The notes under the pieces: generated by a model
What the model was told of the DNA's origin: nothing
The model's input: the letters and a program-made list of their open reading frames with translations, nothing else
Database searches by the model: none
Program-made: the position numbers and the translations under genes
Assembly (NCBI GenBank): GCA_021927905.1
Contig: BLLK01000075.1
Span: 682,001-746,000 of the forward strand
Length of the DNA: 64,000 bases
Direction: 5' to 3'
Source of the DNA: Chaetoceros tenuissimus
Lineage: Eukaryota > Bacillariophyta > Thalassiosirophyceae > Chaetocerotales > Chaetocerotaceae
Shown here: one piece after another, positions 9,123-59,181 of the stretch
Layout of the letters: the number at the start of each line of letters is the position of its first letter
Numbering within the stretch: the first letter of the stretch is position 1

Positions 9123-9860
9123 TTACGCCGATTTTCTCGTTGCTCTATAGTCAGCTCTAGACTGCAAATCATCCTCCATATCTTCGTCTTCGGTAACATT
9201 TGCAGCTGCTTCAGTCATGACAACATCAGAGAAGATTTCATCTCTAGGTGCAGATAAAGGAAGAATTAGACTTCTTTCATGCACTTGGTAAGGCGCATCT
9301 TCGCACAATGTATAACATTTCCCATCTTCTCGAAATGACAAGCAATCCAGTGCCTTGGCAGCTGCAGCATGCTCTGCATCTTTCTTTTTTGAGAACCAAA
9401 CAACTTCCACTGATACCCCTGGATCATCAGATTTTTCCATAGTTGTAGAATATTGCTTCGGGTTCTTCCATTTGCCACTCATAAATTTTTCTAAAGTAAT
9501 TGGACATTTGAAAACAGATGTAAATTTCTTTGCGTGAGAAGGACTATTTTCATCAGGCCAAGTCACGAAACATTCGTTCATGTGAAACTTTTGATCTTTA
9601 TATCGTTGGCCGTACCATAGAGACAATGCATTCTTGGGATTCTCAAAAGATAGGTGATATTTAGGAGTATCTTGCTTGAATATTTTTGGTTTTGTAAATC
9701 TTCCTGTTCCACCTTTGTATTTTGATGGATCGAATTTATCCCAACCGCTTCCGAGAGCAAACCCATCGCTTTTCCTCATCTTGTCTACTTTTAAAGAATA
9801 TTCTGATCTTTCATCGCCGAGACCATCTTTCAAGTTTTGGTTCAAGAAACCCTTTTTCAT
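9123..9860 (-). CDS. Small protein with a dsRNA-binding-domain-like segment
   Basis: A single-exon 245-residue protein. Residues about 72-174 resemble a double-stranded RNA-binding domain. NPKNALSLWYGQRY corresponds to helix 1, a strand region follows with HAKKFTSVF, and the end FSKKKDAEHAAAAKALDCL fits the KK-x-A-x-x-x-AA helix 2 signature that grips the dsRNA phosphates. The strand region is longer than usual (an insert around KNPKQYSTTMEKSDDPG), so this is a divergent member. The flanks are basic before and acidic after. It starts 311 bases from the RdRP start on the other strand. A role as dsRNA-handling cofactor in an RNAi pathway is inference from the domain and its neighbours. An isolated domain fragment of a helicase is an alternative. 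Confidence 0.6.
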   Translation of the reverse strand: MKKGFLNQNLKDGLGDERSEYSLKVDKMRKSDGFALGSGWDKFDPSKYKGGTGRFTKPKIFKQDTPKYHLSFENPKNALSLWYGQRYKDQKFHMNECFVTWPDENSPSHAKKFTSVFKCPITLEKFMSGKWKNPKQYSTTMEKSDDPGVSVEVVWFSKKKDAEHAAAAKALDCLSFREDGKCYTLCEDAPYQVHERSLILPLSAPRDEIFSDVVMTEAAANVTEDEDMEDDLQSRADYRATRKSA

Positions 9861-10171
9861 TGTTTATGTTCGCTTGCCGTAGGAGTTAAAAGTAGCGCTA
9901 GTGAACGGTTGGATATCAGCACCAGTATTATATTTTAGTTGATTTACTCTTGCCAAAGTTCTGTTCATAAAAGAGATTCTTCGTTTTATCTCGATCTTCT
10001 TCAATCAAGATATGAGCCCTTTAGACGCCATCAGTAAATGGCCTTAATCAGTGTCATTTAGAAGTGTCAAAAAGCGTATCTTTTTTGGCAAAAGTGTGGA
10101 GTGAGAACGTCTCTTTTTCTTTTGAAACAAAAGTGAAATTTGGTAACATATATATGAATAAATGAACGAAT
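9861..10171. promoter_or_regulatory. Shared divergent promoter region (dsRBD-like / RdRP)
   Basis: 311 bases between the start codons of two head-to-head genes. A TATA-like stretch (acatatatatgaataa, about 10147-10162) lies just ahead of the RdRP start. No other ORF is present. Co-regulation of the pair is an inference from the arrangement. Confidence 0.4.
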
Positions 10172-13100
10172 ATGAGCGACCCATCCAAACCCCAAACATA
10201 CATCAAGAAGAATGTTGATGACGATAAGACCAGGGGAAGGATTCCTGAAGAGCCAAATCTTCTCTCGTCTCAACATGTGTCTTTCCAAGAATCGTCTTCA
10301 TCGTTGTTTCTTTCCTCCTCATCTAATGAATCCTCTAGTTCAGATGAATCAGATGTCTCATTGTATACACCAGCAAATGATAGATTGGAGAATATCCTCA
10401 AAAAGTCTACTTCTCGCAAGAATAAAGCCACCTCATCTGTGAATTTGAGACGAAATCATTCTATCCATAGCAGGAATGCACGTTCATTGGTAGGATGGCA
10501 ACTATGTAAAAATGGTAGATTCAAAGCAAGAGTCTTCTATAACGGGAAAGTAATTCAGTTTGGAAGTTTTCTATTAAAGGCTGATGCTGCCGAGATGTAT
10601 GACAGAGTTCGTGCTATTATTGAAGAAGGAAGTTGTGACGATCTAGAAGCTACTGCTCAAATCCAAGTGGCTTCGATGAAGACACGATACATGTCTAGAA
10701 ATTTCTATACGGAGCAAGAGTATATTGTATCTAGAACAGGAGAATTGGTAGAGATGGCTCGACTTAGTGCTGAAACTTTAGGTGAACTCTTGATTGAATC
10801 AAAGCCAGCGTTTCTAACAAAAGAAGAGATTCTATATAGATTGCGTGGATTACATAGACGTAACCGTGTGAAAGAAGAAATAGAAGGAGGAAATAATAAA
10901 GCTGTTCCATCAGTCATTTCAAGCAATCATACTGATGGTGACAATACTGCTGTTTCTGCTACTTTTTGTCCAGAATCCCCGAGCCAGTCTGTTGGCGTTC
11001 CATCTACTGATACTGCGGCAACTCCGAACAAGTCTATTGAATATATTGCGAGACGTCCTCCTTTTGAGGTAAGACACCCAAAAGTTACTATGTTTGAATT
11101 TACATCACTTGAAATATTGATTCACAAATATTTTCACTTTCTCTGACAAGGTGGTCACTGCATCTCCGCCATCAACTCGAAATGCTTTTGCAAAGGAATC
11201 GCCTACGAATGACGAATCTAAAAATATAAACAATTTTTCGGAGATGGCAAACTTAGATAATGCATTCTATCCACATCCGAGCACAAAGTTTCATAATATC
11301 TCGGAATCGTCAGAAATTGACTATAATGAGGGAGCTTTAGATTCATTCCAAGAAGGAGACAAAAAACTTCCTGCTGATGACGGCTCTCAAGTAGAGAAGG
11401 CAGTGATTCATCAAGTTGCCTCCAATGTCGGACCGTCATCTGCCTCGAAGTCAGAAGACCACGACCAAGAAGCAAGACTTCCTGATGAGCATACTGCTCA
11501 TGATAGCTCTGGAGTAGAAGAGGCTGTTTTTCAACAAGTTTCCTTCAATGATGGACCTTCATCAGCTTCGAAGTCAGACCAAGACCAAGATCTCTTGTCG
11601 TTAGAAGGTATTCAAGAACAGAGGCTTTGTGATGTTATAATGGCATGTGATACGCCAAGAGCCTCAAGATCTAGATCCAAAGGGGTTCCTTATAGCGAAA
11701 ACCTACTTTCTAGGAATAACATTGACTATTCATTTTGGCAAAGTATAAAGGCTAGGGAAAATGTGAAATCTACTACCAGTTCTTCACATCAAAAGCATTG
11801 TTGCGATGATGATATTGACTCAGACGACTCATTACGGGATGCATACAATATTTTAATGGGTGGATATGATGGTGAAAGTTATAGTAGTGAAAGTGATTTG
11901 TCGGACTCAAGCTTATCTGATGATTCAAGTCTTGATCAGGATGACTACAGTATTGTTGTTTCTGAAGCAAATGAATCGCATCCACGTAACCGAAGCACGA
12001 ATAAAAGAACGTATGTACCTTCTTCTTCAAATTTCAAGGCGAAAAAAGTCTTTCGAAAAAGGAATAAGAATGACAGTAGTCGTCGCAGAAAGAAGCAGAA
12101 ACGAAAACATTTAACAAAACGTAAGAGATCTAACCCTACCAAACGCCGCAATACAGTCTCAAGCCGTGAAATTCAATCCCCATTCTTCCGTCAGCCATCT
12201 TTTCGTGTTGGGTCTCAACAAGGTGGACATTCCTGTTACCCTTTAAATCCAAGAGATAAGTCTCATAGGTAGGTACCAACAGTAATCCTTGATAACAACA
12301 TTGCAAATGTTTCACTCATCCCATTTGATCATTTAGTATGTGGGTTCATATATTGGATTCGTCATTGCTATATTTTGAAAGAAAAGGAAATGAGGAGTTA
12401 TCAAAGATTCACCGTGATCAATCTGGACAGTACATTCTTGTCTCTAGAAAAGAGGTGGATAGTAAAGGGAGCTATTTGTTCGGTCCAAGAAATAAATTTG
12501 AATATATGTATGCTCAAGAGAATGTGACGTCGGAGTCTTCAGATAGTAGCATTTCAATAGTTGAGCTTTTGGAGTCTCTTGGAGATTTTGCAAAGCTGAC
12601 TACTCGCAAGGTAGTCTCTCGTTTAGAGTTATTCCAGTCTCCAGCCCATCAGGTAGGAGTTGACGCACAAGGTGAAAAGAAGTTTCTTATAAGAGAATTC
12701 GACAGTAGTTTGGTCGAAGAAATCGAAGATGATGGTCACGAGGTAAGTTGATCGTCTATTTACATATGAATATAACTCAATTCAAGCACTTTATTTAAAT
12801 CATTTCATGTTTCATTTGATAAACATTATAGGGATGCGGCTATATCTCCGAGGTAGGTAGCAGTTTATACTATGTATTCTTGACCTCTTTTTCTCTAACG
12901 TGAATATACTCCATAGAAATTTCTCTCTAGTCTTTTCACTAGAGAATCAGCGCAAAACATTATCTCGCTACAAGTTCGACTATTCATTCCAACCAGGGGC
13001 ATATTCAAGGTGAGAAATGATAAACAGTGGTATAATACTCCTATAATCTTCCACTCATGTCCAACTTTACCAATCAGGGTATGCTAATGAAACAAAGAAA

Positions 13101-14364
13101 TGTAAGCTACAATATATATCTTTGCATAGAAGATCTTGTGTCACTTTCTCATTGATTTTTTTCCAAATAGGCGAAGGCGTCTATTTGTCTGCCAACATCA
13201 ATGAAAAAAGTAGACAAATCAAAGAAACCAAGAAATAAGAATGCTTGCATAGTCGTATGTAAAGCAGGTGTAGATCCGAGCAAAAATGCAAAACAAATTG
13301 CTAAATTACCACATGTTGATAAAGGTTAGTTCTTGATAATATACAAAAATAAAATTTATTCGAACCGCTTAGATAACAGACTAACATCTATGTCTTTTGA
13401 TAAGATGCCTCTGGACCTGCAAAATCTTTTGAAGTGAAAAAATTAAGTAAGATGCTGATCAGACTGTTGGTGGCGATAGGAGTTCCGAGAAAAGTTGTAG
13501 ATCGATATGTGAATCGATCAGCTTTCAGATCACACGAGCAAGAAAAAAAGGGCAAATTCCATCTACATCATGCCTTTGTTAGAGGAGTAGCTGATCCTAC
13601 GTCAAATCGATCAATGGAACCCAACACTATTTTCATATCAGGTAAGATTCTGAAACGATAAGGAGCGGTCAAACGTAGTCTATCTTTTTGTTATATATTT
13701 GTAAGAAGAGCATCTAAATCTACCTTCTTGTTTCCCCACATTAGGCATTTCAAATTCTCTCAAACCATTTCCTGATGCAATTCTCATTACAAGATCACCT
13801 TGCATCAAAGCTACGGATATTCATTTGGTAAAGCTAGTAAAGAGCAAACCAGAAAAGATGTCGAGTGAAGACTATAAATGGCTTTGTGAGCTGCCATTTG
13901 GAGCTGTGATCTTTGGCTTTCCAAGAAAAGGCTGTCATACGATGCCGTCTGCAATAGCAAAAGGCGATCTTGATGGTGATCGATACTTTATCATATGGGA
14001 TGAGGAAATTCTTAAGCATTCTCAAGCTCCACTCCTTGTTGATAAGATACTTCCCTCTGATGAAAAAGATGAAAATACAAAAGAGGTTATAGATGATCCT
14101 GATTGGTTTACCAAAGCTCAAGATTTCATGGTAAATCCAGAAACAGGCTTGGTTGCAGCATTGATCGGTAAGCTTTACAAAGCATCAGAAAAAGCAGCAG
14201 ATGATGACGAGGACAACAAAATGATGAACGAAGATGCAATGGCTTTTGCCGATGCTTATTATGATGCCCTCGAGAATGCAAAACATGGCACAAAGATAAA
14301 GCTACCACAGCATCTCTGGCCAGAACTACCAGAAAAGTTTTGGAAATTTCTTGAACCGATCTAA
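10172..14364 (+). CDS. Cellular RNA-dependent RNA polymerase with AP2-like N-terminal domain
   Basis: My model has nine exons: 10172-11068, 11151-12268, 12337-12742, 12832-12852, 12917-13009, 13078-13101, 13171-13324, 13405-13641 and 13745-14364. It is in frame throughout, giving 1189 residues. Two microexons are 21 and 24 bases. Residues about 105-152 resemble an AP2 DNA-binding domain (GRFKARVFYNGKVIQFGSF..ADAAEMYDR). Residues 300-672 are low-complexity with a very basic patch near 595-632. The eukaryotic RdRP core starts near 802 (DGHEGCGYIS, then LQVRLFIPTRGIFKG and PTSMKK). It continues with TRSPCIKATDIHLV and FGFPRKGCHTMPSAIAKGDLDGDRY is split across the active site, with the Mg-binding DLDGD at 1058-1062 (13966-13980). 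Such enzymes make dsRNA for RNAi. The C-terminus after DLDGD is short. The AP2 part could be a separate gene ending near 12268; in-frame splicing favours one gene. Confidence 0.8.
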
Positions 14365-14665
14365 TCTTCTATTTTCCAAAAAAAGTGTCTAGTATTTAGT
14401 TTCTAAAATAGTACATTAACGTTTTAGTCCCATCTTGACATTATGACAGAGGAAATTAGCCAAGACACTGCCAGTCCCGTATGGAGTTCATTCAAAATGA
14501 AAAACGGAAAAAATGTACACCAACGTCGAAAACAACACAAACAACCTTTCTTCACAACATAATCACATAAAAATTCAATACCTATTTCACGCAACACAAC
14601 TACAACAATCAACACTCAGTTCTAGGTATTCACATACCTAGTGTGATGCAGCCTCTTTTGTGTAA

Positions 14666-14740
14666 TGTTCAATATGGTCACTTTGGTGTTCTACTTCTTG
14701 AATGCAACCCTGACCGAAGGCATTACAAAAGCAAGAGAAA
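14666..14740. repeat. Direct repeat, first copy
   Basis: About 75 bases starting tgttcaatatggtcactttg and ending gcaagagaaa. It is repeated at 14986-15057 with near-identity apart from a 4-base gap. It lies inside the gap between the RdRP and DNMT3-like genes. Confidence 0.8.
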
Positions 14741-14985
14741 CTGTATCGCACCACTGAGCCACCATCTGAACAGACATAACCTTGCTCCATACCCTTGTCT
14801 AAAAAGCAACAACCAACAGCGCAATAATGCCTCCAATCACAACAGCATAAAATACAAATATACAATATAATGCATCTAGAAAATGAAGATCTCAACTCCA
14901 TAAGGGACAAGGTTTGAAATAGGTATTCCAACACCTATGTGAGGTATTTCAACACCTGTGCAAAAGACTTCTTATGTTTTTGTAC

Positions 14986-15057
14986 TGTTCAATATGGTCA
15001 CTTTGGTGTTCTACTTGAATGCAACCCTGACCGAAGGCATTACAAAAGCAAGAGAAA
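14986..15057. repeat. Direct repeat, second copy
   Basis: Second copy of the repeat at 14666-14740, 320 bases downstream, lacking four bases (cttg) after the ttctactt segment. The flanks also share AACACC/GGTATT motifs, so the repeated unit may be longer and more diverged outside this core. Confidence 0.8.
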
Positions 15058-15443
15058 GCATTGCACCCCTCAGCCATGTTCCTTCCGCACGCCCAAGTGA
15101 CTCTACTTTTCCGTCTGAATGTTGGGGGACTTTTCAAAGAGCTAGATTCTGATTTGCCAAACTATCGCTCATCATAGTCCATGCCAAGAGTATATAGAGA
15201 GAACTGCGCACCTTCAAGCACGGCTGAAATAGGCACAGAAGACAGACAAAGATGACTGGATCCTTCTTGGTAGAATCTACGTGACTGCTAACGATACTTC
15301 TGATGCACACTTGGATCTCGCCAATGCTGACTTAACTGAACTTTACTGGCAATGCCACTTGATTAAAAAGAAGCTGCAAAATAGATGGCGAAGTTATGAT
15401 GAACAACTTTTTTAGTAATAATATCAATAACCTAAAAAACAAA

Positions 15444-15489
15444 GAATTCAGGGCAAGGAATGAGAATTAATATTCCCTGCCCTGAATTC
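15444..15489. repeat. Long perfect-looking hairpin (18-base arms)
   Basis: The left arm gaattcagggcaaggaat and the right arm attccctgccctgaattc match at 17 of 18 positions around a 10-base AT-rich loop. A related hairpin with 12-base arms is at 55322-55357, with the same left arm (agggcaaggaat). It could be the terminal hairpin of a degraded element, or a transcribed stem-loop. Confidence 0.75.
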
Positions 15490-16157
15490 GTAAAGGGCTG
15501 GTCTAAGATATTTTTGTACTCGATTGAAGGTGGATAAAATCGAGACGCCACATCCGTGAGGGATGGTGGTGCTGATCATGTGACGAAAGAAGTAATACGT
15601 TGCATTGTTCATGCACTTTTATATACGTTGTTATTGATGTCCATGATATTGAAGATAACTTCTAGACTTGATACACGAGAATGGTATTAATTTAGATTAT
15701 TCTGTTTCTAGGAAGAATCATGAGACGCAAGTGACATCATTGGAGAAGAATTTTGAGTAAAACCTTGGCAGAGGATGTCATGAACTGTTCTTAAAAAAGG
15801 ATGCGATGAGACTTCACGAAATGTAACTGAATGAAGTCATTTCAATATGCATAAAAAGCGTTTCATTTGTAAAAGCGAGAGAGTTTTAGTCTCCCATCTT
15901 TCTTGTTCCACTGATGTTCAGACACATTTGTAAAGAATATGATCTCAAGACAGAAGCTGAACCTTCCACTGCATCTGTATGCCTTCGATAAAGTCCACCT
16001 AAATATGCATATAATAATTCCGATAAGCTAGCATCTAAAGCTGGTGCCGCTTTCACCAATTCTCTAGGTGAATCTTTGGCGACCTTCTTTCTCTGCGGAG
16101 ACTAACTTGTCACTTTAAATACTTTATGGGTACTTCAGTAGAATTATACAATATAAA

Positions 16158-19046
16158 TCAAATCCAGTCACCTTCACTGCTATCATCGCTTTTTGCTTTC
16201 TCAACCTGCAGATTCTTTTCATTCTCTGTATTTTCCTCGGCATTTGCATCCTCAGGATCAGGATGGTTAGCTTCATTAGTATTGCCAACTTCAGAATTGG
16301 TGGTAGTATCATCACTTGCGTCGACATCAACTGATTCTGCGTTAGTTTTTTCGATGTCACTGTAGGCTGTGGAAATAGAAACAACGGTTTAAGAAACTTT
16401 GTGTTGTAAAAGTAATTGTAGAGTAAAAGAAACTTACGTGGCCAAGGGTACTCATAGTCAAATCCGTCGTAGGTTCGAAACAAAGCAGGTGTGCGATACA
16501 TCTCTCTTATACCTTTGAAGATATGCTCAACAACTGGGACACTCCATCCTATAAGATAACTCACGTGAGACAAAGAGCATGAACGAAATATATACATGAA
16601 TTGCACTACACTGGACTTACCGTTACCAATCAAATGCTTACAGTATTCTTCTTCGTCATAGTAACTCAGAACTTTCCGCCCTTCTGCTGGAGCTGATATC
16701 ATTACTTGAAAGAAAGGCGCCTCGCCATATTTCTCTTTGACTTTAAAGTTGCACTTCTTCACAAAGTGCCACAATGAGCGATCAAGATAGGACTGTTGGA
16801 TACAAGCTTACACGTTAGAAACGCAGAATATAACTTAGATTTGATACCAATCGACGCACCTTATAAGTCTTGCCTAGATTCATCTCTGGATAGAGAAATC
16901 CATTCTGCGCAATCTCTCGAAAGAGCTCCTTCATTGCCTTTGACACATATCCTTCCGGAAGGCCCATCATTATCTCTCGTTCCTTCACTGAATATGTCGA
17001 CTTGAGATATCGCCCATCTTCAGTTGGCTTCACCTTCGTCATTCTTTCGTCATCAATTCTTGTGCGTGACGCCATTGAAGTGTTTGCCTAACAAACGAAG
17101 TATGTAGGTGTAAGATATATACAAATTTAATTATGTATACATCAAAACATACCTTCCAAGTCATGTGTCCCTCCTCTCTTTCAGTAGCAACAACAGAAGC
17201 AGCCATAACCCAACCATCGTCTAGAAGAAGTCTAGGGGTAGCAAGATCTGTTGCCACAGTAGTTGTAACCAAATCAGTTTTATGTACTCCTGTTTCGTTT
17301 GTTGGATCAGTATCGGCGTCATTAGCTGCATCGACATTGGTTGCTATTGTATCAGACTCCGTTTCCTTGTTCTCTTCTTCCTTCTCTGTTCTCGTTGTAG
17401 GTGGCATCTACCGTATGAAATTGTTGAGAAGTTGCTCATAATAATAGAACTATGGAGCGATAAGACTTACATTAGTCCAGTAAAATCTATTCCTTGCCAT
17501 GGGACTGAAATCTTTTCCATCGAGTTGAATTGGCGGTAGCCCATGTTCATCGCGTTGACGGTAATAGGTGCTGACATTATCCGAATCTTTAAAGAGCACA
17601 TTTTCCGACATGAATAATACTGGGTATTCCCTATTTTTCCGCTTAAATTGCAAATCATTCATGTCACTAATAAGAAGACCTACTTTAGGGAGGTAGCTTG
17701 ATAGAAGTTGGTAAGAATGGATCGTTTACATGGCTGATGAAAATCGTTTTGCTGCCTCACCTCGCATTGTAATTTTCACGACTTCTATATGCGTTGACTT
17801 CACTGTAGTTCTGACAAGGGGCTCCTGTGTGCATTTTTAGTATATGAAATACGGAATCATTATTATCATGCTGTCTTCTTGCATGCAGTCACATGAATAC
17901 TTACCTGCTACAACCAGATCAAAAGGACCGTGTTCATCAATCAATTTCCACAAGAATTTAGTACACATTGTTTTTGTATCGTTCTCTCCACCATAAATAT
18001 CCTCAAATGACTCGATATAAATATGATCAATGTCATCGTCCTTGTGATTGAACTTACTCACATACACAGCAACTGGATCATGTTCTACATGTACCATTTT
18101 TGCAATTGGAAGTTTCAATTTCTTGAGGACGACTGCAGCGGTTCCTATTCCTGAAAACAGATCAAGCACAATAAGCGGATGATCAAGCTCCTTCTTTTCA
18201 ATCCTTTGATGATACTGCTCTTTCACAGTCATCTATAACAAGATTTATGAGAATAGAAACAAAGAATATTGGAGCTCATCGTATTTCTGGACTCACATAA
18301 TCTGGATAAGTTTCAATTTTCCAATTCCATTTATCTAGTACATCACGAAAGTCGTCATTGTGTCGTTGTACTTCCTTTCTCCGTTCACTGTTGTACAATC
18401 TTTGTATGTCACTCAACGGTTTAGCCTCTTCTAATTTCTTCTCACAAGTGTGCGACTTCACTAAATAAAATTAGGTCAGTTGAAAAAGAAATTGATATTT
18501 CAATCACACCTCGAAATCAAATGGTCTACTTGTCAACTTACAAATGGCTTCTGTCATAGGACTGAGATAGTCGTTGTGCCTTTCATTAAACTTGTGGCAG
18601 CAGCCTCTATGATATAAATAAGTATTGCCCTCAGGTGCAGAGTTTCCACAGTTGTTCATCACAAGAACTCCCCAGTCAGGGTCTATGTATCTGTTGACAG
18701 TCGCATCTGTACAGTTGCATTTCAAACAGCATATAGCATAGCGAGGAAAAATAACACATTCATCTGAAAAATAGGCAGGCAACCATTCTTCCTTCAGCAC
18801 ATCACTCATAGAATCATCGAATTCATTAGATGGAGGCGGATCATTTTTGAGAGGGTCAATCTCCTCATTCTTTACAGGGCTAGTTGCAACATTTTGCTTC
18901 TTCTCCGCTGGTTTATGAGGAGGGCTTTCCGGTGCGTTCCTTTTTAGATCGGCTTCATCATCTGACGAATCAAAAGATAGACCATTCATTTCTAAAGAAT
19001 AGATTTGAATTTCTTTCTTGAATATTTTGTTTTTTGCCACTTTCAA
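16158..19046 (-). CDS. DNMT3-like cytosine-5 DNA methyltransferase
   Basis: My model has ten exons: 19046-18542, 18460-18297, 18232-17905, 17824-17761, 17696-17471, 17407-17153, 17087-16860, 16792-16621, 16548-16438 and 16366-16158. It is in frame, giving 753 residues. It transfers methyl from S-adenosylmethionine to cytosine. Motif I is LDLFSGIG (246-253) and motif IV is GAPCQNYS with catalytic Cys336 (codon 17814-17816). Motif VI is SENV (Glu385) and motif VIII is RNRFYWTN. The C-terminal WSVPVVEHIF closely matches the end of animal DNMT3 (motif X). Residues about 95-170 are Cys/His-rich, in the place of the ADD domain but not a clear one. No PWWP domain is seen. A Thr/Glu-rich insert precedes the target-recognition region and the tail (685-753) is acidic. 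The exon 4 to 5 acceptor (17696) is my choice to keep motif VI in frame. It is head-to-head with the Argonaute gene. Confidence 0.85.
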
Positions 19047-19286
19047 CTTGATATGATGTGATATAAGCAGCAGCTTAGTTTTGATTGTTCCTCGATCCCT
19101 CGTCTTTTTGTATAATTGCTATTTTAGTGCTAAATGGCCTGTCCGCTTGTCAAGATACTTTTTTTTTTGGTGAGCAGCACAGTTGCAGCAGCCATCAGCA
19201 TCAGCGGCAATAATAATGAAGGACATCACATCCACATCACAGAATGAAAAGGCAATACTAATCACTACAATAAAAGTAACTAACAA
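19047..19286. promoter_or_regulatory. Shared divergent promoter region (DNMT3-like / Argonaute)
   Basis: Only 240 bases separate the two start codons, which point away from each other. The region holds a T-run (around 19161-19170) and a GCAGCA/CATCAGC-rich stretch (about 19175-19212). This is the smallest intergenic space between divergent genes in the window, so a bidirectional promoter is likely (inference). Confidence 0.45.
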
Positions 19287-22200
19287 ATGAGCTACCATCG
19301 TGACTATGATCGAGGACGTGATAGAGGAGGAGGGTATGGCGACAGAGGCTATGGTGGAGGAGGATATGGAGGGTAAGTAAATATACTAGCTAGCTCTTTC
19401 ATATGTTTAAGTTACCTAGTTAAGTCACTAGCTCACCTTCTATCTCCTTTCATCTATTTAGTGATCGTGATAGATCTAGAAGTAGGGATTATTTTGACAG
19501 AGGTGGAAGAGGCGGCGGGCGGTTTGGAGGCGGGAGAGGTGGAGGTAGAGGAGGAAGAGGTGGTAGAGGCCCACCTAGGCCAGTAGATTCTACGAGTGTC
19601 ATTACTAATTGTTTCGAGTAAGTTGTTTTCTACACATGTTTGTATATTTTTAATGACCAATGTCTCATGTATATTTATATATTTCAGAACTACCTTCAGA
19701 AATGACAAGATTGAAATTTTTGAGTTCGAAATAAGAATTTTCAAGGCAAAGAAACAAAAAGATGAAAAGTTTAAACCTCTGAAGGATGGGAATGGAAACT
19801 TTATTTATGAAAAAGGCAAACAAATCTTGAAACAAGATGAAGGAAGTAATCGAAAGTTTGAGGTTGAAAGTGGCGAGTTTAGTCGTAAGATCTTGCTCAA
19901 ATTATGGTGAGAATATTTTGTAGAATTTGAACTGGATATCAAATAGCAAACGCATCTAATCTGAATTCTTCTTCGCTAGCGATACTTTCTGGCAAAACCG
20001 TATATTTGTAGTGACTGACGGCTTTTCGAAGGCATATAGTCCTACAAAATTGTTTGATGAAGCGAGACGAGACTATCATATTATTGTGAAAGAAGATTGC
20101 GCCGAAGATGCTGAGTACGCCGAACGTGTTAGAAATGCCCATTTTCTCATTGAATTCAGAAAGGTTGGGAGAGATGGAAGAATTACCTACTACCCTAAGC
20201 AACTTGGGGATTTAATACAAGTTCGAACTTTCATGTCTGTACTCTACAGATCTGCATTGGAAAGCAGTGGCATGAAACTCTATGGCAAGAGCCCAAGAGT
20301 TGTGCATCTACCTGCAGACAGTCAAACAGAGTTTATAAAGAGCAGGAAACTCATGGACTTATTGCGTACTGTAAGTTGACTTTACTCAGATATTATTGAC
20401 TAGCTATTGTCTCTTATTTTTGACACAAATGTTGCTCAAAATTATAGGAACAAAAATATAGGCCTTCGATTGGAATTGTTGATCTCTTCCGAGCAAGTGC
20501 AGATGGAGCGAGTGCGACTGGACGGCTTTTTCTTAATCTTGACCAAGGTTAGTAATTGCAGTATCTAGCACAGCTTTTGATTTCAATAGTGTGACTTATT
20601 TACTATATCCATCCTGTGTAGCTGTGGAGTTTCGGATGAGAGGCACATTTCCTGGAGTACGAAATGATTGGATCCCACTTCTCCAGACATCAAATGGACG
20701 TTGTTCAATCGCTGATGTACCAATAAGTGATCCTCATCGCCCAATCGTTGATCAGGACTTGCAAAATAGGTAAGTCAATTCATTGATTAGTTACATGATG
20801 AAAGACATTCATTGATAGTTTATTTTTATTCCTTTCAAAAGAATTAAGTTAGCACTTTTGAAGCTGACAATTAATGTGAAGTATGAAGTCCCAATACCAA
20901 ATGGTGCAGCGGAGAGGTTGAAGCAGAAATTCCCTGATCGGGCAGAGGACTGGATTAATAATAGACTCAGTCGGAGTTATGGTTTGCAGGTGAGTTTATT
21001 TCATATGTCATTCAATATCTTTATTACGGTGGTTTATGGACACTAATGTCATTTCATAGGTTCGTCACAATCGTCGTATGCCTGCAAGAGGCGAGCAGCC
21101 AAAGCCAGGCAAAAGCAAACGAGTCGAAGAGGGGGAAGAGGAACTACCAAGTAAAGGGCTAGATAAAAATGTGATTGTAAGTATACACTACTGCTGTTCT
21201 TCACAAAGATCGACTTTATAATATGCTAACAAATCTGCACTTGATAGTGGAACCCAACTGATCCAAATGAGTACTCATTTATGTTTGGTCCTAAAGGAGA
21301 GGCAAAGCGACTTGTAACAGTTCCAGAATACTTTCGTGCGCGATGGGGGTTAACTCTACAATATCCTAATATGCCCCTTATCTATACTGGGTATGTATAG
21401 TTCACTTATGCAGTATGCATCATCATAGTAGCGATTCTAACTTGATATTTTTATCTCACAGAAAGCAGGAATGGTTTCCCATAGAATTCTTGTAGTAAGT
21501 ATTTTCACTGTGATATTCTCCTGAGTATTTGTCTTTCCAATTTCTCATAAACTTCATTGTATAGTCAAGGAGAAGCACCATTGAAAGAAAATGTTCAGAG
21601 GCCAAAAAATGTGCAATCGGTTCTTGCAGAGAACGATGAAATAGCTGGACATATTCGAATTCAGCACCTTTCATCATTATACAGATATATCCATAAGCAA
21701 CTACAGAGGTGAGTAGTTCCAGTATTCCATGAAGCCTTTGCTTTTGAATTCTTCGACAGTATGTTTAATACAATCATTTAATTTTCGTTTCCTTTAGAAA
21801 TGGTCTCGGTATTTCCCACGTATTGGAACAGTGAGTACTATCTCTATGATTTGTATATAACGTAATTGAACAGAATACGTACTTATTTCTTACACCTAAT
21901 CTAGGTATGGCATTGACATATCCAACAATCCGAAAACTGTGGAGGCAAAGGTCCTGCCCTTGCCGAGAGTATTTTTTGGGAGTCAAGAGGTCAGTGTCGG
22001 GAACGGAAGTTGGAACCTTCTTAATGTGAACTTTACTAGACCAGCGGACTTAGGTGCATTTGCAATTGCAGATTTCAGTGGCAGGCGAGCTGGAAGTAAC
22101 TTCATTTCAGAGTTTCTCCCCGTTGCAAGGAAACATGGAATGGCAACTCCACTTGAAGACAACATTAACCTTTCCAACATAGTGGAGGAATCGCGAGTTT

Positions 22201-24435
22201 CACGTGGTGGTCTTACTGTAAGCACTATGGAAGATACTGTCAGCACCGCAATCGAGAAAGCGCATTTCTACTTCACAGGGCCTTATCTGAGGTAAGAGAT
22301 GGACTTTGGCTTGCCTTAATGCAAAGTTGTTCATGTGGTTTTGACTAACATAACCTTTTAATTAGGCGTATGTATGATACGTACAAAGGTAAGCCTTAGC
22401 TATGGCCAATATGCAGTTTCTTTTATCTATTAGCTAACACTGTCTTTATTCAGTTGGTATTAATGGTAAAGTCCAAAGTCCTGATGCCCGAGATGGAATA
22501 TTCGATACGGAATGCGTCCTAGTACCTGGCGTAGAAGAGAACTCAGTAGGGGTCATACTACGTAGGAACGCATGTTTCTCTACTCATAAGTTAAGCAATG
22601 GAGTTAATGCTCGACTTATGTACCGACATGGTCGCAGGGACTACGACCCTTTTGACGTAAGACTCATGAATCATGAAGTTCAAGTTTCCGACAATAATGT
22701 ATGGCGAAGTGTTCGGAATGTCGATACTGTATTGTGAGTACTTCATATAATTCATATTTCCAAACTCAGATGGTGTAATTCCTCATATTCTTCACCAATA
22801 GTATGACAGAAGATGGTCGTGAGTACAATGATGCCAATGCGACTCCTTCTCTTGAAGTCCACATTGATTTTGTACAGGTTTTATCAATTTTGTTTGTGAT
22901 TCTACCAGAACAGTCAACATCAGGTATGTAAATTTGACAAAATAAGTCTCGCGAAATATTTATGCTAATCATCACATTGTCACCACAGATTATGGCATTG
23001 CAAAACTACTGAGCCATTTCCACTACGGCATTCCATCCCAATGTTTAGTGGCGGAAAAGTTTCTTAAACAAAGACAGAAGGGACAGTAGTAAGTTTCTTA
23101 TTTCACTTCTAAAAAATCTATTCACTTTCTAATCGTTTATTCTCCGTTAGTTGTTCTAATATTGCAATCAAAGTAAACGCTAAGCTTGCAAATTGTAGTA
23201 ACAGGGCGACCACTTGGACTTGCATGCCTACTTCATCCAATCAATTTCAACCTGATACTGCCCCGAGAGATAAGCATGGTCCTACTTGGATTAGAGAGGT
23301 TGATACAATTGTTATCGGGCTTAGGTAAGTAGTCACAGTATCTGACATGTAAAGAATCCTTCTTCTCATTTGAATCTCATAATTTGCTTTTTCTCAAGTA
23401 TGTCGAATATGCGGCAAGGTGATGAACATGTATCAATCGTGGCTGTAAGTGCTACATTAGACCATAATTGTATTCGAATGGCACAAGACTTTTGCGTTTG
23501 TTCGAAGGAAAAGGTAATTGATAGAGAGGTGGTTGCTTACCTAGTACAATCAATGCTGACAATGTACTATCATAGTAACGACTATGCTGTCCCTAAGAGA
23601 ATACTCGTCTACAGAGATGGAGTCTCTGACGAGCTCTGTTACGATGTTCTCTTGAATGAGGTACCTGGAATCCGTTCTGGATTCAAAAAGTTTTGTCACT
23701 TAATTCGTCGAGATATTGATATCCCACCAATTACTTTAGTTGTATGCCAGACGGGTAACAGCTTGAAGGTTGTTCCTGCAGACGAAAGAAATGGTGTTGG
23801 ACGCGGGGGCAAGAATGTTCATACTGGCACATGCATTGATACTGACATTATCAGTGCCCCTCTTGATATTGGCGATGAAAGTAAGGGCGAGGAACAAAAC
23901 ATGAAATCTTATGGAGGATATGATTTTGTCTTAGTAGCTCAAGGCTCAGGCAAAGGAACTAGTAAGCCTGTGCAGTATAAATGCATATTGAACGAAAATG
24001 CAATTGCTAATACTTACGGAGGATCTCCTTTGACAAGAGACTTTTTGGAAAGGGCAACATTCGAGCTTAGTTATCTTTATTCCACAGCAACCAAGGCTGT
24101 TCGTTTGGTATCGGTTTTAAAATACTCTACTCGTCTTGCCGAAACATTCCACAAATACTGTGGACAAGTGTTCCATACTCTTGTTGCTCGGCCTCTTGAT
24201 AGCATGCGTGCGAATACAGATGACTCGATTGGATTCGTAAGAGCTAAAGACATATTTACATTGCCCGATGAAGAATCAGTAAGTACTTTGGTCCTTCTCA
24301 TATTAAAATGCAGCATTACTCTCCACTTACACTAATATTACCATTCAGAGCTTCTCTCTCCTCAAGGCATTTACTGCAAGCCTACCTACCGAGAATGGAA
24401 CTTTATACGCACCCGGATCACATTTGGCTGCTTGA
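19287..24435 (+). CDS. Argonaute/Piwi-family protein, probably slicer-inactive
   Basis: My model has 20 exons: 19287-19372, 19462-19617, 19688-19906, 19980-20370, 20448-20547, 20622-20769, 20842-20989, 21060-21176, 21248-21390, 21462-21494, 21565-21708, 21798-21830, 21905-22291, 22366-22388, 22454-22733, 22802-22923, 22989-23088, 23151-23324, 23399-24278 and 24349-24435. It is in frame, giving 1256 residues. Residues 1-75 are RGG-rich. A PAZ-like region lies within about 400-560, followed by linker 2 and a MID region (FVILPEQ, YGIPSQCLVAEKF, INAKL-like IKVNAKLAN). The PIWI domain runs from about 925. In the catalytic tetrad the positions are Ser935 (in place of Asp), Glu978, Asp1008 (YRDGVSD) and Gln1127 (GTSKPVQY, in place of His). 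It should bind guide RNA but not cut. It likely acts with the neighbouring methyltransferase (inference). Confidence 0.88.
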
Positions 24436-25477: not shown

Positions 25478-27433
25478 ATGAATTACACTTGGAAAACAGT
25501 CTACGGCGATCAACGCCTTGTTGATCTAGCTCGTGAGCTCCGTGGGAAATCAGCTGATAGTGAAGAAGAGGAAGAGAATGGTGATGATTATTCAGATGAT
25601 GATGACAATGATTCTGATGATCATGAGTTCATAAATGATGATGAGGAAGAAGGCGACGATGATAATGATGAGGAAGAAGATTCATCGAGTAGTGAAGAAG
25701 AGGAAGTCAAAGAATCCAAATTTGATAAAAGGTGGAACGATAAATACAAGCAACTGAAAGAGTACAAGGCACAAAATGGACATTGCAATGTGCCAAGAGT
25801 ATATGAACCAAATAAAGCTCTTGGTACTTGGGTATACAAACAACGACAGGAATATAGAAAGATGTCTGAAGGTCTTTATTCCTGGATTACACAGGAAAGA
25901 GTAGAAAAGCTAGAGAATATTGGCTTTTCATGGGTGGTGCTCCGAAGTAACGATACTTGGAACGAAAGCCTAAAAAAGCTGAAGGAATTTAAAGCTCAAA
26001 ATGGGCATTGCAATGTGCCACAGGGCTACGAGGCAAACAAAGCTCTTGGAAAATGGGTTAGTGCTCAGAGGCAGAGTTATATTCTCAAGTCAAAAGGATT
26101 GCAATCTTGGCTGACTGAAGAACGAGTAGAAAAACTCAATAATATTGGATTTGTATGGGCACCAAAGAAGGATACCTGGCACAAAAGACTTGAACAACTT
26201 AAGGAATTCAAAGCTAAGCATGGACATTGCAATGTGCCACAGGGCTACAAATCAAATAAATCTCTTGCTATTTGGCTCGAACACCAACGATTTCAACATA
26301 AACTCATGTCTAAAGGTGCTCATTCCAACATGACTGAATATCGAGTTGAAAAACTAGAGAGTATTGGAATTTTATGGAATCCAAATGTGGATATTTGGAA
26401 TGATAGATATAAACAAGTCAAGGAATTCAAAGCTAAAAATGGACATTGCAACGTACCACGAGAATATGCACAAAATAAAACTCTTGGTAGCTGGGTTCAT
26501 CGTCAAAGAACTGAATATTCACTAATGAAGAAAGGACTTCAATCAAAGATGACAGAGGACAGAGTAGAAAAGCTTGAAAATATTGGGTTTGTTTGGAGCA
26601 CAAAGAAGGATACCTGGAAGGAAAGATACGAAGAGCTTAAGGAATATCATGCTCAGCAAGGACATTGCAATGTGCCAAGTAATTATGAACCAAATAAAAC
26701 TCTTGGCAATTGGGTTGGGAGTCAACGAGCACATTATAGACTCATGTGTGAAGGATTGAAATCTTCCATGACGGAAGAACGAGTAGAAAAACTGGAGAAT
26801 ATTGGTTTTGAATGGAAACTTAGAAAGAATGTTCAGAAAAATACATCATGGGATGAGAGACTACGGCAACTGAAGAATTTTAAAGCTCAGTATGGACATT
26901 GCAATGTTTCAGCGAATAACAAACTATATAAATCTCTTGGGATTTGGGTTGGGACTCAACGAAGTCAATATAAACAGTTCCACAGAGCCCCATCAGACAT
27001 AATCAGAGAACGAATTGCAATACTTGAGAGTATGGGCTTTGTATGGACACCAATGAAGGATACCTGGAAGGAAAGATTTGAAGATCTAAAGATATTCAAA
27101 GCTCAATTTGGACACTGCAATGTTCCAGGCATTTATGAACCAAATAAATCTCTTGGAAAATGGGTCAATAAACAACGAGTACAATATAGACTCATGTGCG
27201 AAGATGCTCATTCGAACATGACAAGAGAGCGAGTAAAAACACTTGAGAGCATTGGCTTCGAATGGAGTTTGAAGAATAAAAGGATTAGTCATAAGAATGC
27301 TACAGTTAAAAAACACAGCAAGAAAAGTATTGTATCTAAGAATAATACAGTCAAGAGAAGCAGCAAGAAAAGGATTGCACGTAAGAACGCCACAGTCGGA
27401 AGACGCAGCAAAAGACTTAAATCAAAAAAATAG
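25478..27433 (+). CDS. Helicase-associated (HA) domain repeat protein, 7 repeats
   Basis: A single-exon 651-residue protein without any helicase motor. The N-terminus (MNYTWKTVYGDQRLVDLARELRG) is shared by all four array members. Residues about 28-78 are very acidic (Asp/Glu/Ser). Seven HA repeats of about 66-70 residues follow, each with W-x3-R/Y-x2-LKE(F/Y)KAQ-x-GHCNVP, then NK-LG-WV-x2-QR and ERVEKLE-IGF-W. The last 45 residues are basic repeats of the KNATVKKxSKK type, ending RRSKRLKSKK, a likely nuclear signal. HA domains occur after helicase cores in bacteria and stand alone in diatoms. DNA or RNA binding is assumed from the basic and aromatic pattern, not shown. Confidence 0.85.
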   Translation: MNYTWKTVYGDQRLVDLARELRGKSADSEEEEENGDDYSDDDDNDSDDHEFINDDEEEGDDDNDEEEDSSSSEEEEVKESKFDKRWNDKYKQLKEYKAQNGHCNVPRVYEPNKALGTWVYKQRQEYRKMSEGLYSWITQERVEKLENIGFSWVVLRSNDTWNESLKKLKEFKAQNGHCNVPQGYEANKALGKWVSAQRQSYILKSKGLQSWLTEERVEKLNNIGFVWAPKKDTWHKRLEQLKEFKAKHGHCNVPQGYKSNKSLAIWLEHQRFQHKLMSKGAHSNMTEYRVEKLESIGILWNPNVDIWNDRYKQVKEFKAKNGHCNVPREYAQNKTLGSWVHRQRTEYSLMKKGLQSKMTEDRVEKLENIGFVWSTKKDTWKERYEELKEYHAQQGHCNVPSNYEPNKTLGNWVGSQRAHYRLMCEGLKSSMTEERVEKLENIGFEWKLRKNVQKNTSWDERLRQLKNFKAQYGHCNVSANNKLYKSLGIWVGTQRSQYKQFHRAPSDIIRERIAILESMGFVWTPMKDTWKERFEDLKIFKAQFGHCNVPGIYEPNKSLGKWVNKQRVQYRLMCEDAHSNMTRERVKTLESIGFEWSLKNKRISHKNATVKKHSKKSIVSKNNTVKRSSKKRIARKNATVGRRSKRLKSKK

Positions 27434-27997
27434 GGATAGAAATGTTTTTGAAACTGAAATGGCTTTTTCATTCCTATTTGTATTAGTAAATGTATAACTT
27501 AATTAAATAAATATTGGTCATTCTTTATCCACTTGTATAATTTTTAAAATGCACTTCTTGTACGTAGAAAGATACTGTGGCCGCGACAATGAGAAGGAGA
27601 TAAAAATGTTCTTTGACGAATTACAAACAAGAGAAACAAAATAAGCTTCAATTGCTGATTACTGTGGAATGTCTTTGGTTGCTATAAATCACACTGTACA
27701 TCTATAAGATAAACTGCTTATGTGGGATTATCTACTGTGAATACATCTCTAGCGGATGGAACAATTGTAAACATGGAAAATAAACATGTGACATAGGTTA
27801 TGATCCTTGACAGAATAACAGGATCAGCGGATCAGCGATCAGCGATCTAGCCAGAAACTTTCTCATGACATGATGCTATCTTATTGATGAAAGAACACTA
27901 GTTGAGGGAGCATGTAATCATTGAAAGACATAAATACAAGCCTTACCTCATCATTTATGTTTGAAAAGAGAAGCAACAGTGATAGAAGCAAAGCCAA
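27434..27997. other. Spacer between HA genes 1 and 2
   Basis: About 560 bases carrying the array spacer: a 3' part (27555-27665, gaaggagataaaaatgttct) and a 5' part (about 27790-27997, cttgacagaataacaggatc, gaaagaacactagttgag). The 5' part closely resembles the upstream regions of the other members and should include the promoter. No gene seen. Confidence 0.5.
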
Positions 27998-30900
27998 ATG
28001 AATTACACTTGGAAAACAGTCTACGGCGATCAACGCCTTGTTGATCTAGCTCGTGAGCTCCGTGGTGAATCAGCAGATAGCTCTGAAGAAGAGGAAGTGA
28101 ATGATAATGATGATAATTCTGATGATAGTAATGATTCTGATGATTATGAGTTTGTAAATGAGGAAGATGAAGATGACAACGATAATGAAGAAGAAGAAGA
28201 AGATGCATCTAGTAGTGAAGAAGAAGAAGTCAAAGAATCCAAATTTGATAAAAGGTGGAACGATAAATACAAGCAACTGAAAGAGTACAAGGCACAACAT
28301 GGCGATTGCGATGTGCCAACTGTGTACAAGCCAAATAAAGCTCTTGGAAAATGGGTATACAAACAACGACAGGAATATAGAAAGATGTCTGAAGGTCTTT
28401 ATTCCCCTATGACACAGGAGCGAGTAGAAAAGCTTGAGAATATTGGCTTTTCATGGGTGGTGCTCCCAAGTAAGGATGCTTGGAATGAAAGATTTGAAGA
28501 GCTGAAGAAATTTCAGGCACAGACTGGACATTGCACTGTACCAAGGCAATCAAATAAAACTCTTGGTGCTTGGGTTAGAAGGCAGCGATGTGACTACAAT
28601 CTCTCAAAATCTTTGATGACAGAGGAGCGTATAGAAAAGCTTGAGAGTATCGGTTTTTCATGGGCACCAGCAGAGGATACCTGGAATGAGAGATTTGAAA
28701 AGCTTAAGGAATTTAAAACTCAACAAGGACATTGCAATGTGCCGCATAAATACCAACTAAATAAAGCACTTGGATATTGGGTAAACAACCAAAGAGAGCA
28801 GTATAAACTTCTGTCAAAAGGAAAAAAATCTTCCATGACAGAGCAGCGCGTCAAGAAGCTTGAGAATATTGGCTTCATGTGGAATCGATTGAAGGACACT
28901 TGGAATGAGAGATATGAAGAGTTGAAAGAGTATAAACTTCAATATGGTAACTGCAATGTTCCTTTCAATTATGAACTGAGTAAAGCTCTTGGTGGTTGGG
29001 TTATTGAGCAACGGCAACAATATAGAAAGATGTCTGAAGGTGTTTATTCCTTCATGACACAGGAGCGAGTAGCAAAGCTGGAGACTCTTGGCTTTTCATG
29101 GGTTCTCCGAAGTAAGGATACTTGGAATGAGAGATTTGAAGAGCTCAAGGAATTCAAAGCTCAACAAGGACATTTCAATGTTCCTAATAAGTATGATGCA
29201 AATAAAGCTCTTGGCAATTGGGTTCAAATGCAACGACAACAGTATAAACGTCTTTCAAATGGATTGAAATCTACCATGACACAGGAGCGAGTAGAAAAGC
29301 TGGAGAGTATTGGTTTTGTATGGAATCACTTGAATGATACTTGGGAAGAAAGATACAAACAACTGACATTATATCAATCTCAAAATGGACATTGCAATGT
29401 GTCTCGGGCAAATAAATCTCTTTGTGGTTGGGCTACTTCACAACGGGAGCAATACAGAAAAATGTCAAGTGGATTAAAATCCCAGATGACTCAGGAGCGA
29501 GTTGAGAAACTTGAGAGTCTCGGTTTTGAGTGGACACCAACTGAGGATGCCTGGAATGAGAGATTTGAAGAGCTCAAGGAATTTAAAGCTCAACAAGGAC
29601 ATTGTAATGTGCCACATAGATATGAACCAAATAAAGGTCTTGGCATTTGGGTAGGGACTCAACGAAATCAATATAAACTTATGTCAAATGGATCAAAATC
29701 TACCATGACGCAGGAGCGAGTAGCAAAGCTGGAGAGTCTTGGTTTTGTATGGAATCGATCGAGGGATAGATTGAAGGATACTTGGAATGAGAGATTTGAA
29801 CAGTTGAAGGAGTACAAAGTGCAAAATGGCCATTGCAATGTGCCAACTGTGTACAAGCCAAATAAAGCTCTTTTTGGTTGGGTATGTAACCAACGGCGTC
29901 AATATAAACTTATGTCAAATGGATCAAAATCTACCATGACACAGGAGCGAGTTGAAAAGCTGGAAGGTCTTGGTTTTGTATGGAATCGATCGAAGGACAC
30001 TTGGAATGAGAGATATGAAGAGCTGAAGGAGTACAAAGTGCAAAATGGCCATTGCAATGTGCCAAATGTCTATGAACCAAATAGAGCTCTTGGTTCTTGG
30101 GTTGATGCACAACGGCAGCAATACAGAAAAATGTCTCAAGGTCTTTCTTCCCCTATGACGCAGGAGCGAGAAGAAAAGCTAGAAAGTCTTGATTTTGAAT
30201 GGGTTCTCCGAAGTAAGGACACCTGGAATAAGAGACTTGCAGAGCTCAAGGAATTTAAAGCTCAATATGGACATTGCAATGTTCCAAGGGAATATGAACA
30301 AAATAAAGCTCTTGGTAATTGGGTTCATAATCAAAGGCAGAAATACAGCCTTCTGTCCAAAGGAACAAAATCTTCCATGACACAGGAGCAAGTCAAAAAG
30401 CTTGAGAGCATCAGTTTTGAATGGACACCAATAGAGGATATCTGGCACAGAAGACTTCAAGAGCTCACAGCATATCAAGCTCAACATGGACATTGCAATG
30501 TACCAAATATTTATGAACCAAATAGAGCTCTTGGTAATTGGGTTCAAAATCAGAGGCAGCAACGGCAACTCTGGGTTAAAGGATCCCCTTCTTACATGAC
30601 ACAGGAGCGAGTAGAAATGCTGGAGAATATTGGCTTCGAATGGAGCCCATCAAAGGATATATGGGATGTAAGATTCCAAGAGCTCGAGTTATTTAAAGCT
30701 CAACATAAACATTGCAATGTGCCATGGCAATATGAACCAAATAAAGCTATTTTTACTTGGGTATGCAACCAACGAACACAATACAGACTCATGTGTGAAG
30801 GTGCTCATTCGAACATGACAAGAGAGCGAGTAGAAAAGCTTGAGAGTATTGGCTTTGAATGGAGTCGATCAAAGAAAAGCATTGCTTGTACTAAAAAATA

Positions 30901-35752: not shown

Positions 35753-35769
35753 CAACGACGTCAATATAA
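35753..35769. repeat. Target-site duplication, left copy
   Basis: The 17 bases caacgacgtcaatataa occur here and again at 41327-41343, bounding the inserted element. The bases just outside differ, so 17 is the full length. Confidence 0.85.
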
Positions 35770-59120: not shown

Positions 59121-59181
59121 TTATGGTTGGGAGCTCAGCAGAAGCCTATGGAGCAAGTAACCGTGTGAGCATTCCTATGGA

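Follow-up and report, generated by a model that had tools for sequence, protein, structure and literature searches.

The sole Argonaute detected in the genome of the diatom Chaetoceros tenuissimus has lost residues of its catalytic tetrad and retains a complete pocket for the guide 5'-phosphate and, because of this combination, it looks like a non-slicing guide holder. Its gene lies within 15.3 kb, in a host genome of 41.03 Mb, together with those of a cellular RNA-dependent RNA polymerase (RdRP), a DNMT3-family methyltransferase and, by a weak match, a dsRNA-binding-like protein (dsRBP-like). The loss of the tetrad is a stronger result than the clustering. The subject bears on RNA-directed DNA methylation (RdDM) outside land plants and on gene silencing in diatoms, both open questions; in particular, if the only Argonaute lacks slicer residues, the apparent absence of miRNAs would become easier to explain, and the cluster points out genes to delete and tag. 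The window is the whole stretch of 64,000 nucleotides that was analysed.

Organization of the Locus

The features of the locus, with positions in the window, are the following:

9123..9860, minus strand: dsRNA-binding-like protein, 245 aa, single exon (open reading frame; sub-threshold DSRM_2/dsrm matches)
9861..10171: upstream region common to the dsRBP-like and RdRP genes, 311 bp, with TAAATGGCCT at 10035
10172..14364, plus strand: cellular RdRP, 1189 aa, 9 exons (PF05183; DLDGD in the last exon)
14365..16157: tail-to-tail intergenic region between RdRP and DNMT3, parts of it repeated inverted elsewhere on contig C59
16158..18989, minus strand: DNMT3-family cytosine-5 DNA methyltransferase, 734 aa, 10 exons, with an N-terminal Cys/His module (PF00145; DNMT3A profile match)
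18990..19286: upstream region common to DNMT3 and Argonaute, 297 bp, with TAAATGGCCT at 19131
19287..24435, plus strand: Argonaute, 1256 aa, 20 exons, with RGG-rich N-terminus, PAZ, MID and PIWI regions and a degenerate catalytic tetrad
23308..23408, plus strand: where Argonaute has lost its first catalytic Asp (IGLSMSN versus, e.g., GADVTH in other Argonautes)

The first-pass annotation had placed four gene families within 15 kb, arranged as two head-to-head pairs, and had named an RdRP with a DLDGD site, a DNMT3-like methyltransferase with motifs I, IV, VI, VIII and X, and an Argonaute. The paired arrangement is borne out, the start codons lying 311 bp apart in dsRBP-like/RdRP and 297 bp apart in DNMT3/Argonaute, and the three named enzymes are identified by Pfam or profile matches, whereas the dsRBP-like family is weak, with sub-threshold matches only.

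Genome-wide, the loci found are one for Argonaute, three DNMT3-like and two for RdRP by Pfam, with a third RdRP locus that is divergent. Under uniform placement, the post hoc probability that RdRP and DNMT3 both lie within 15 kb of the Argonaute is 3.2e-6 to 4.8e-6, or 1.9e-5 with an assumed 12 DNMT loci, and the gene-order version of the calculation, also post hoc, gives 4.6e-7 to 1.9e-6. In so compact a genome, with 18,705 genes in 41 Mb (PMC8613185), gaps of about 300 bp between divergent genes are probably commonplace. No description of the cluster was found in the literature searched. As for synteny, relatives of the Argonaute occurred in 0/7 viral-contig and 0/16 genome-contig stretches, a set with no other eukaryote genome in its scope; the corresponding DNMT3 scan gave two weak relatives among 66 viral-contig stretches (26% and 22% identity), and no linkage of Argonaute and DNMT3 emerged from Skeletonema scaffold names, the DNMT3 match P0050 alone carrying one among the names listed.

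Also on contig C59, which bears the cluster, are a second Dicer-like gene at C59:583 kb, ~104 kb upstream, and, ~42 kb downstream, a third RdRP-like gene. A further Dicer locus, at C16:1.07 Mb, has DEAD, helicase C and RNase III matches; no methyltransferase domain was detected there in the four pieces scanned, nor was PF00145 near the locus among the matches listed. The same contig C59 contains duplicated segments, and the 3' end of the RdRP with parts of the adjoining intergenic region (14264-15099, 87%) recurs inverted at ~769-772 kb.

Both divergent promoters of the cluster contain the 10-mer TAAATGGCCT, which has 217 copies in the genome, some of them in repeats, versus 44 of the reversed control. 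Sharing of k-mers between the two promoters is significant for 7-mers only (p 0.018; 8-mers 0.13, 9-mers 0.32), and the 9-base core of the motif is absent from the sequence examined at the loci of the second RdRP and of both Dicer-type genes. As a shared promoter motif, it is a lead only.

The RNA-Dependent RNA Polymerase and the dsRNA-Binding-Like Protein

The spliced 1189-aa RdRP model matches PF05183 at 2.2e-34 and carries DLDGD at residue 1058, the combination of family and DxDGD motif that marks the cellular enzymes. Among solved chains, RNA-dependent RNA polymerase 2 of Arabidopsis (7eu0, 7.7e-7) comes nearest to the 517-aa catalytic part. The long N-terminal half has no Pfam match; an AP2-like look of this region was dropped, there being no Pfam match at E<=1 and no PDB match at E<=10.

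The neighboring dsRBP-like protein reaches E 0.067 with DSRM_2 and E 0.43 with dsrm, both below the cut-off, and no solved relative was found at E<=10. Related places in the genome are C16:480 kb (52%) and two weaker ones, the C16 paralog matching DSRM_2 alone (E 0.25). The dsRNA-binding identity, weakly indicated by these matches, is the weak point among the four gene assignments.

An Argonaute Without Slicer Residues

The 20-exon Argonaute model is open in frame throughout. One exon matches Pfam Piwi at 1.2e-29 and another gives sub-threshold ArgoL2 and ArgoMid matches; a profile of 10 rows, window copy included, matches the PAZ and MID chains of solved Argonautes, so that the PIWI, PAZ and MID domains of the AGO clade are all represented. 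The residues Y-K-Q-K-K form the guide 5'-phosphate pocket of Argonaute. They read YKQKK, hence complete, in the window protein and are complete in 10/11 diatom-type rows, the exception (P0004) having Ser for Gln, and in 7/13 control rows, where most of the others have Val or Ile for Gln and the Citrus row P0103 is broken, part of its MID being missing.

The catalytic residues behave otherwise. Among the matches listed, all 11 readable diatom-type Argonautes have another residue in place of the first catalytic Asp of PIWI, which all 80 others keep, and 10/10 diatom-type rows lack the fourth tetrad residue, which is H/D in 76 of 77 other Argonautes, three more (P0042, P0092 and P0095) being unreadable at this position. 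The glutamate is kept in 7/11 diatom-type rows, and is lost in the window Argonaute; the third Asp persists in 9/10. In the window protein, Ser replaces the first Asp, through a codon split by the intron 23325-23398, and Thr occupies the fourth column, so the DED(H/D) tetrad of slicing Argonautes is not present. The 80 controls are all those from two homolog searches (candidate lists of 7820 and 8000), on which an earlier table with 13 hand-picked controls was repeated. P0060, an N-terminal fragment with no PIWI, was left out of all tetrad counts; P0005, which has no third-Asp motif and an unrelated tail, was left out at the third and fourth positions, its fourth-column D going uncounted, so that 10 diatom-type rows remain there.

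Slicing is reported to need the tetrad, although the tetrad alone does not suffice for it (PMC6284064). Loss of tetrad residues suggests guidance rather than cutting, and would suit RNA-directed methylation of chromatin or DNA. No description of slicer loss in a diatom Argonaute was found in the literature searched. The first diatom RNAi study is cited in PMC4247016 as finding the key residues conserved, which conflicts with the loss found here.

The DNMT3-Family Methyltransferase

The methyltransferase scores 28.1 bits with PF00145 (cut-off 22), and a profile built from 14 homologs without the window copy finds DNMT3A first (4.8e-24), with DRM2 chains ranked after DNMT3. Motifs I/IV/VI/VIII/X stand in canonical order at residues 228/316/365/403/627. 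The homolog search used a 724-aa model; the final 734-aa model adds an acceptor fitted by eye to the homologs and was re-derived from the DNA. The ADD and PWWP domains of animal-type DNMT3 gave no Pfam match at E<=1 in the window protein or in four homologs, and an ADD domain was accordingly rejected. Companion domains are absent from algal DNMT3 according to two papers, yet a conserved Cys/His module precedes the DNMT3 domain in diatoms and could read chromatin. Its pattern is absent in 6/14 homologs, one of which (P0047) shows a partial module by eye, the other five being short (400-476 aa).

Two DNMT3 paralogs are dispersed elsewhere in the genome with no recognised silencing gene beside either; the C41 copy is, by eye, head-to-head with an aureochrome-like gene. 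Between the window gene and this copy dN is 0.10 and dS 0.52 over 540 of 541 codons of the first 7 of 10 exons, to which the comparison is limited because the C41 copy stops at a contig end. The two copies are under purifying selection. In P. tricornutum, whose DNMT3 is listed as Phatr3_J47136, 5mC is reported to depend on DNMT5a, and the available text gives no result for a DNMT3 mutant (PMC9998398).

A Possible Silencing Pathway and Its Alternatives

We consider it quite possible, if somewhat short of probable, that the cluster supplies part of a pathway for RNA-directed transcriptional silencing in diatoms. In this scheme, dsRNA would be made by the RdRP from transcripts that are aberrant or come from transposons, and would be cut by a Dicer-like enzyme encoded elsewhere (C16:1.07 Mb or C59:583 kb). 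The single Argonaute, unable to slice, would hold the guides, dock on nascent transcripts and bring silencing enzymes there; of these, DNMT3 is the candidate from the cluster itself for de novo 5mC. Non-slicing guidance by the Argonaute is very probable and targeting at the chromatin level fairly probable; that DNMT3 is the partner recruited is conceivable, with doubt prevailing. Joint action of these genes in an RdDM-like pathway, which the first-pass annotation had raised, is partly supported and is plausible because small RNA (sRNA) coverage correlates with 5mC on transposable elements (TEs) of Phaeodactylum tricornutum, in a report that already proposed an RNA-dependent methylation pathway for diatoms (PMC4247016), and because a Dicer-like protein of Fragilariopsis cylindrus is fused to a DNMT domain (PMC4156623). 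Against it stand the dispersed DNMT3 paralogs, the synteny scans, in which no Argonaute relative occurred, the reported place of DNMT5a and of histone marks in P. tricornutum, the conserved key residues cited from the first diatom RNAi study, the weak dsRBP and the lack of the TAAATGGCCT core near the other silencing loci examined.

Alternatively, the closeness of the four genes might be an accident of history in a compact genome, with DNMT3 and RNA silencing working separately. The gene density (PMC8613185), which would make short divergent gaps ordinary, the dispersal of the DNMT3 paralogs, one of them paired with an aureochrome-like gene, and the duplicated segments of C59, RdRP 3' end among them, all favor such an accident, but a post hoc chance of about 1e-6 to 2e-5, and the further Dicer-like and RdRP-like genes on the contig, make it rather unlikely. 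We give similarly low weight to a slicer-dead Argonaute that drives histone heterochromatin (H3K9/H3K27 methylation) with DNMT3 as a bystander or later follower: P. tricornutum sRNAs of 26-31 nt are, according to a review, essential for H3K9me3/H3K27me3 on TEs (PMC12203969), and 5mC there is reported to depend on DNMT5a (PMC9998398), yet sRNA coverage correlates with 5mC too (PMC4247016), and DNMT3 adjoins the Argonaute and has the module that could read chromatin. An antiviral or post-transcriptional RNAi module, repressing RNA without slicing, is improbable. Viruses with ssDNA and ssRNA infect C. tenuissimus and RNA silencing is raised as a possible defence in its genome paper (PMC8613185), but the loss of slicer residues removes the usual cutting route, and the available text of a 2025 infection transcriptome has no Argonaute, RNAi or RNA-dependent RNA polymerase in it, an absence that says nothing about their expression (PMC12305248).

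Returning to RNA-directed transcriptional silencing, a broader and distinctly speculative proposal, which we hold to be unlikely as a whole, is that diatoms early made their only Argonaute a non-cutting guide holder, gave up mRNA slicing and use it for RNA-directed silencing of both chromatin and DNA, and that in Chaetoceros RdRP, Argonaute and a recruited DNMT3 form a co-regulated, RdDM-like locus assembled independently of plants.

Comparison With Known Systems

The sRNA-linked TE silencing of P. tricornutum likewise involves one Argonaute-like protein, Dicer-like and RdRP proteins, and sRNAs on methylated TEs, whereas neither a gene cluster nor slicer loss is reported in the available text (PMC4247016; Grypioti 2024, as cited elsewhere). 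The F. cylindrus fusion also links small-RNA and methylation machinery physically in a diatom but, as described, it joins Dicer to a DNMT1/Dim-2-type domain, while the Argonaute, RdRP and DNMT3 of Chaetoceros are separate neighboring genes (PMC4156623).

Plant RdDM (RDR2-AGO4-DRM2) has three enzyme families in common with the diatom cluster, and RNA-dependent RNA polymerase 2 is the solved chain nearest to the diatom RdRP. The DRM methyltransferases have a rearranged motif order. Unlike these, the cluster methyltransferase follows the canonical order I-IV-VI-VIII-X, and on this point the cluster does not qualify as plant-type RdDM; moreover, the diatom Argonaute is without tetrad residues and the diatom genes are clustered. 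Non-slicing Argonautes of other organisms similarly hold a guide without a full DEDX tetrad, and in many hosts they coexist with slicing paralogs; in contrast, no second Argonaute was found in the diatom genome, and every readable diatom-type row shares the loss.

Layout of the Cluster

Within 15.3 kb lie a dsRBP-like gene, an RNA-dependent RNA polymerase (RdRP), a DNMT3-type methyltransferase and an Argonaute (AGO), with splice models predicted from consensus sites and an open-frame check:

9123-9860, minus strand, dsRBP-like gene, single exon
10172-14364, plus strand, RdRP, nine exons (predicted)
16158-18989, minus strand, DNMT3, ten exons (predicted)
19287-24435, plus strand, AGO, twenty exons (predicted)

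The two head-to-head pairs described in the first-pass annotation are borne out by start-codon gaps of 311 bp (dsRBP-like/RdRP) and 297 bp (DNMT3/AGO); RdRP and DNMT3 stand tail to tail, 1793 bp apart. The in-frame stop that apparently severs the N-terminal part of RdRP falls inside an ordinary intron (12269-12336). Pfam and solved-structure matches back the identities that had been given to AGO, RdRP and DNMT3; that of the dsRBP-like gene is weak, with sub-threshold Pfam matches in two paralogs behind it. The genome searched comprises 68 contigs and 41,027,912 bases; the window corresponds to C59:682001-746000, and its G+C ranges from 0.365 to 0.436 (2-kb steps). The published NIES-3715 genome has 85 scaffolds, 41.0 Mb and 38.9% G+C; in the available parts of that paper one Argonaute and one Dicer accession are named, and nothing is seen on gene neighbourhood (PMC8613185).

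The motif TAAATGGCCT occurs in both divergent promoters, at 10035 and 19131; genome-wide it has 217 copies, compared with 44 for the reversed control, and some copies sit in repeats spaced at 35 bp and 1.1 kb.

Under uniform placement, the probability that an RdRP and a DNMT3 both lie within 10-15 kb of AGO is 1.4e-6 to 4.8e-6, rising to at most 1.9e-5 if twelve DNMT loci are assumed, and 4.6e-7 to 1.9e-6 by gene order; these values are post hoc, computed once the cluster was known, and ignore the local duplication visible on C59, the contig carrying the window. The RdRP 3′ end and adjoining intergenic DNA (14264-16078) have inverted pieces, 71-89% identical, about 75 kb off (L048:4368-6748), and a 3.3-kb stretch at 58674-61971 is 98.9% identical to L051:6603-9900, also on C59, and looks like a recent retroelement copy. 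No description of the four-family clustering, which had been thought undescribed, or of slicer loss in diatoms was found among the titles and abstract openings listed by searches of open-access journal papers.

Downstream of AGO, a series of genes built of helicase-associated repeats (HA, PF03457) occupies 25478-35839, with 7 and 5 repeats in the two frames scanned. Further on, 18-27 kb from AGO, lie a Tudor-PHD protein gene (49423-51355) and a similar-looking neighbour (42025-46936), possible chromatin readers; PF21743 is just above its cut-off in the former and the PHD matches just under theirs.

Loss of Slicer Residues in the Diatom Argonaute

The window AGO was aligned with 91 Argonaute matches from two homolog searches, giving 12 diatom-type rows (window, P0001-P0009, P0058 and P0060) and 80 others; "diatom-type" was assigned by similarity, two rows having named species and the rest being metagenome or transcriptome proteins without species. 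P0060 lacks PIWI and is unreadable for the slicing tetrad, DED(H/D). The first aspartate is replaced in all 11 readable diatom-type rows (Ser in 10, Asn in 1) and kept in 80/80 other Argonautes. The fourth residue is neither His nor Asp in 10/10 diatom-type rows, excluding P0005 (no third-Asp motif, unrelated tail), and is H/D in 76 of 77 others. The third aspartate is retained in 9/10 diatom-type rows and the glutamate in 7/11, being lost in the window row (11 of 13 controls retain it). Profile alignment with solved argonaute-2 chains places the same tetrad residues opposite each other. All five residues of the 5′-phosphate-binding guide pocket (Y-K-Q-K-K) are present in 10 of 11 diatom-type rows.

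The two rows assigned to a species come from Dactyliosolen fragilissimus and Corethron pennatum, which belong to separate diatom classes (NCBI), so the loss is probably old in diatoms. Brown-algal AGOs retain DEDH (PMC12867755). To the contrary, PMC4247016 cites an earlier study that reportedly found the domains of diatom RNAi proteins to be conserved, key residues included; it does not name those residues.

The DNMT3 Methyltransferase

The best solved match of the methyltransferase profile is DNMT3A (4.8e-24), with DRM2 at 8e-16, which by sequence places the enzyme in DNMT3; the motifs claimed for it earlier are present in canonical order. The catalytic domain is preceded on its N-terminal side by a Cys/His module, CxxCxC...CGN...YHxxCCH, that could be a zinc finger. 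A pattern search recovers the module, with small variations, from the window copy and its two paralogs as well as from 8 of 14 homologs. Algal DNMT3s are reported, in the available parts of PMC9998398 and PMC12344493, without chromatin-associated or companion domains. Skeletonema-type proteins P0050, P0052 and P0054 are longer; P0050 (Skeletonema dohrnii), the one domain-scanned, shows a Tudor match below the threshold (E 6e-4) before the module.

Between the window gene and its copy on contig C41, dN is 0.10 and dS 0.52 (NG86), or 0.10 and 0.56 (YN00), calculated from 540 codons in exons one to seven; the pair has thus evolved under purifying selection, a property of the two copies jointly and not assignable to one of them.

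Silencing Genes Elsewhere in the Genome

Counts are lower bounds, the genome search having scored best candidates only: at least one Argonaute locus (the window AGO) and at least three DNMT3-like loci (window, C41, C42). The other genes are:

C38:158-160 kb, second RdRP, 1093-aa open frame, sub-threshold KOW match
C59:748-750 kb (748.4-750.3 kb; L047:2440-4260), third RdRP-like gene, divergent, DLDGD present, Pfam sub-threshold
C16:1.074-1.079 Mb, Dicer-type gene, DEAD, helicase C and RNase III, Dicer-dimerisation match just under cut-off
C59:583-587 kb (583.3-587.0 kb; L034:2776-6520), second Dicer-like gene, second frame with two RNase III stretches
C32:888 kb, further RNase III match
C41:1-2255 (within L029:1-4360 = C41:1-4360), DNMT3 paralog, 83% identical to the window gene along 1826 bp of DNA, truncated at the contig end
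C42:242-245 kb, DNMT3 paralog, 51% protein identity in best stretch

The third RdRP-like gene lies about 42 kb downstream of AGO. On the upstream side, about 104 kb separate the cluster from the second Dicer-like gene, whose N-terminal frame gave no Pfam match and, by eye, contains a repeated region. The C41 paralog is head-to-head with an aureochrome-like gene (bZIP and LOV; named by eye), and no further cluster proteins matched in 10 kb at C41 or 19 kb at C42. The RdRP N-terminal part (residues ~80-220) has relatives at C48:356.8 kb (L053) and C59:632.1 kb (L052) with no RdRP domain match, and thus recurs as a separate domain.

For T. pseudonana, one Argonaute, two Dicer-like proteins and three RdRPs are counted (PMC3155517), or two RdRPs according to a review (PMC3145265).

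A Possible Silencing Mechanism

The favoured reading is that the cluster may serve RNA-directed silencing at the transcriptional level, in which the Argonaute does not slice and DNMT3 is its partner; we hold this combined reading tentatively, at slightly under even confidence. The diatom Argonaute would hold guides without slicing: slicing is unlikely because tetrad residues required, though not sufficient, for it (PMC6284064) are lost, and guide binding is likely given the retained pocket. Guides would direct silencing to chromatin, a step supported by analogy with published P. tricornutum results (PMC4247016, PMC12203969); small-RNA-dependent DNA methylation in diatoms has already been proposed (PMC4247016). 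DNMT3, a putative partner by its place beside AGO and its family function, would initiate methylation. In P. tricornutum 5mC depends on DNMT5a (PMC9998398), which is possibly the maintenance enzyme there; DNMT3 would then be the putative initiator.
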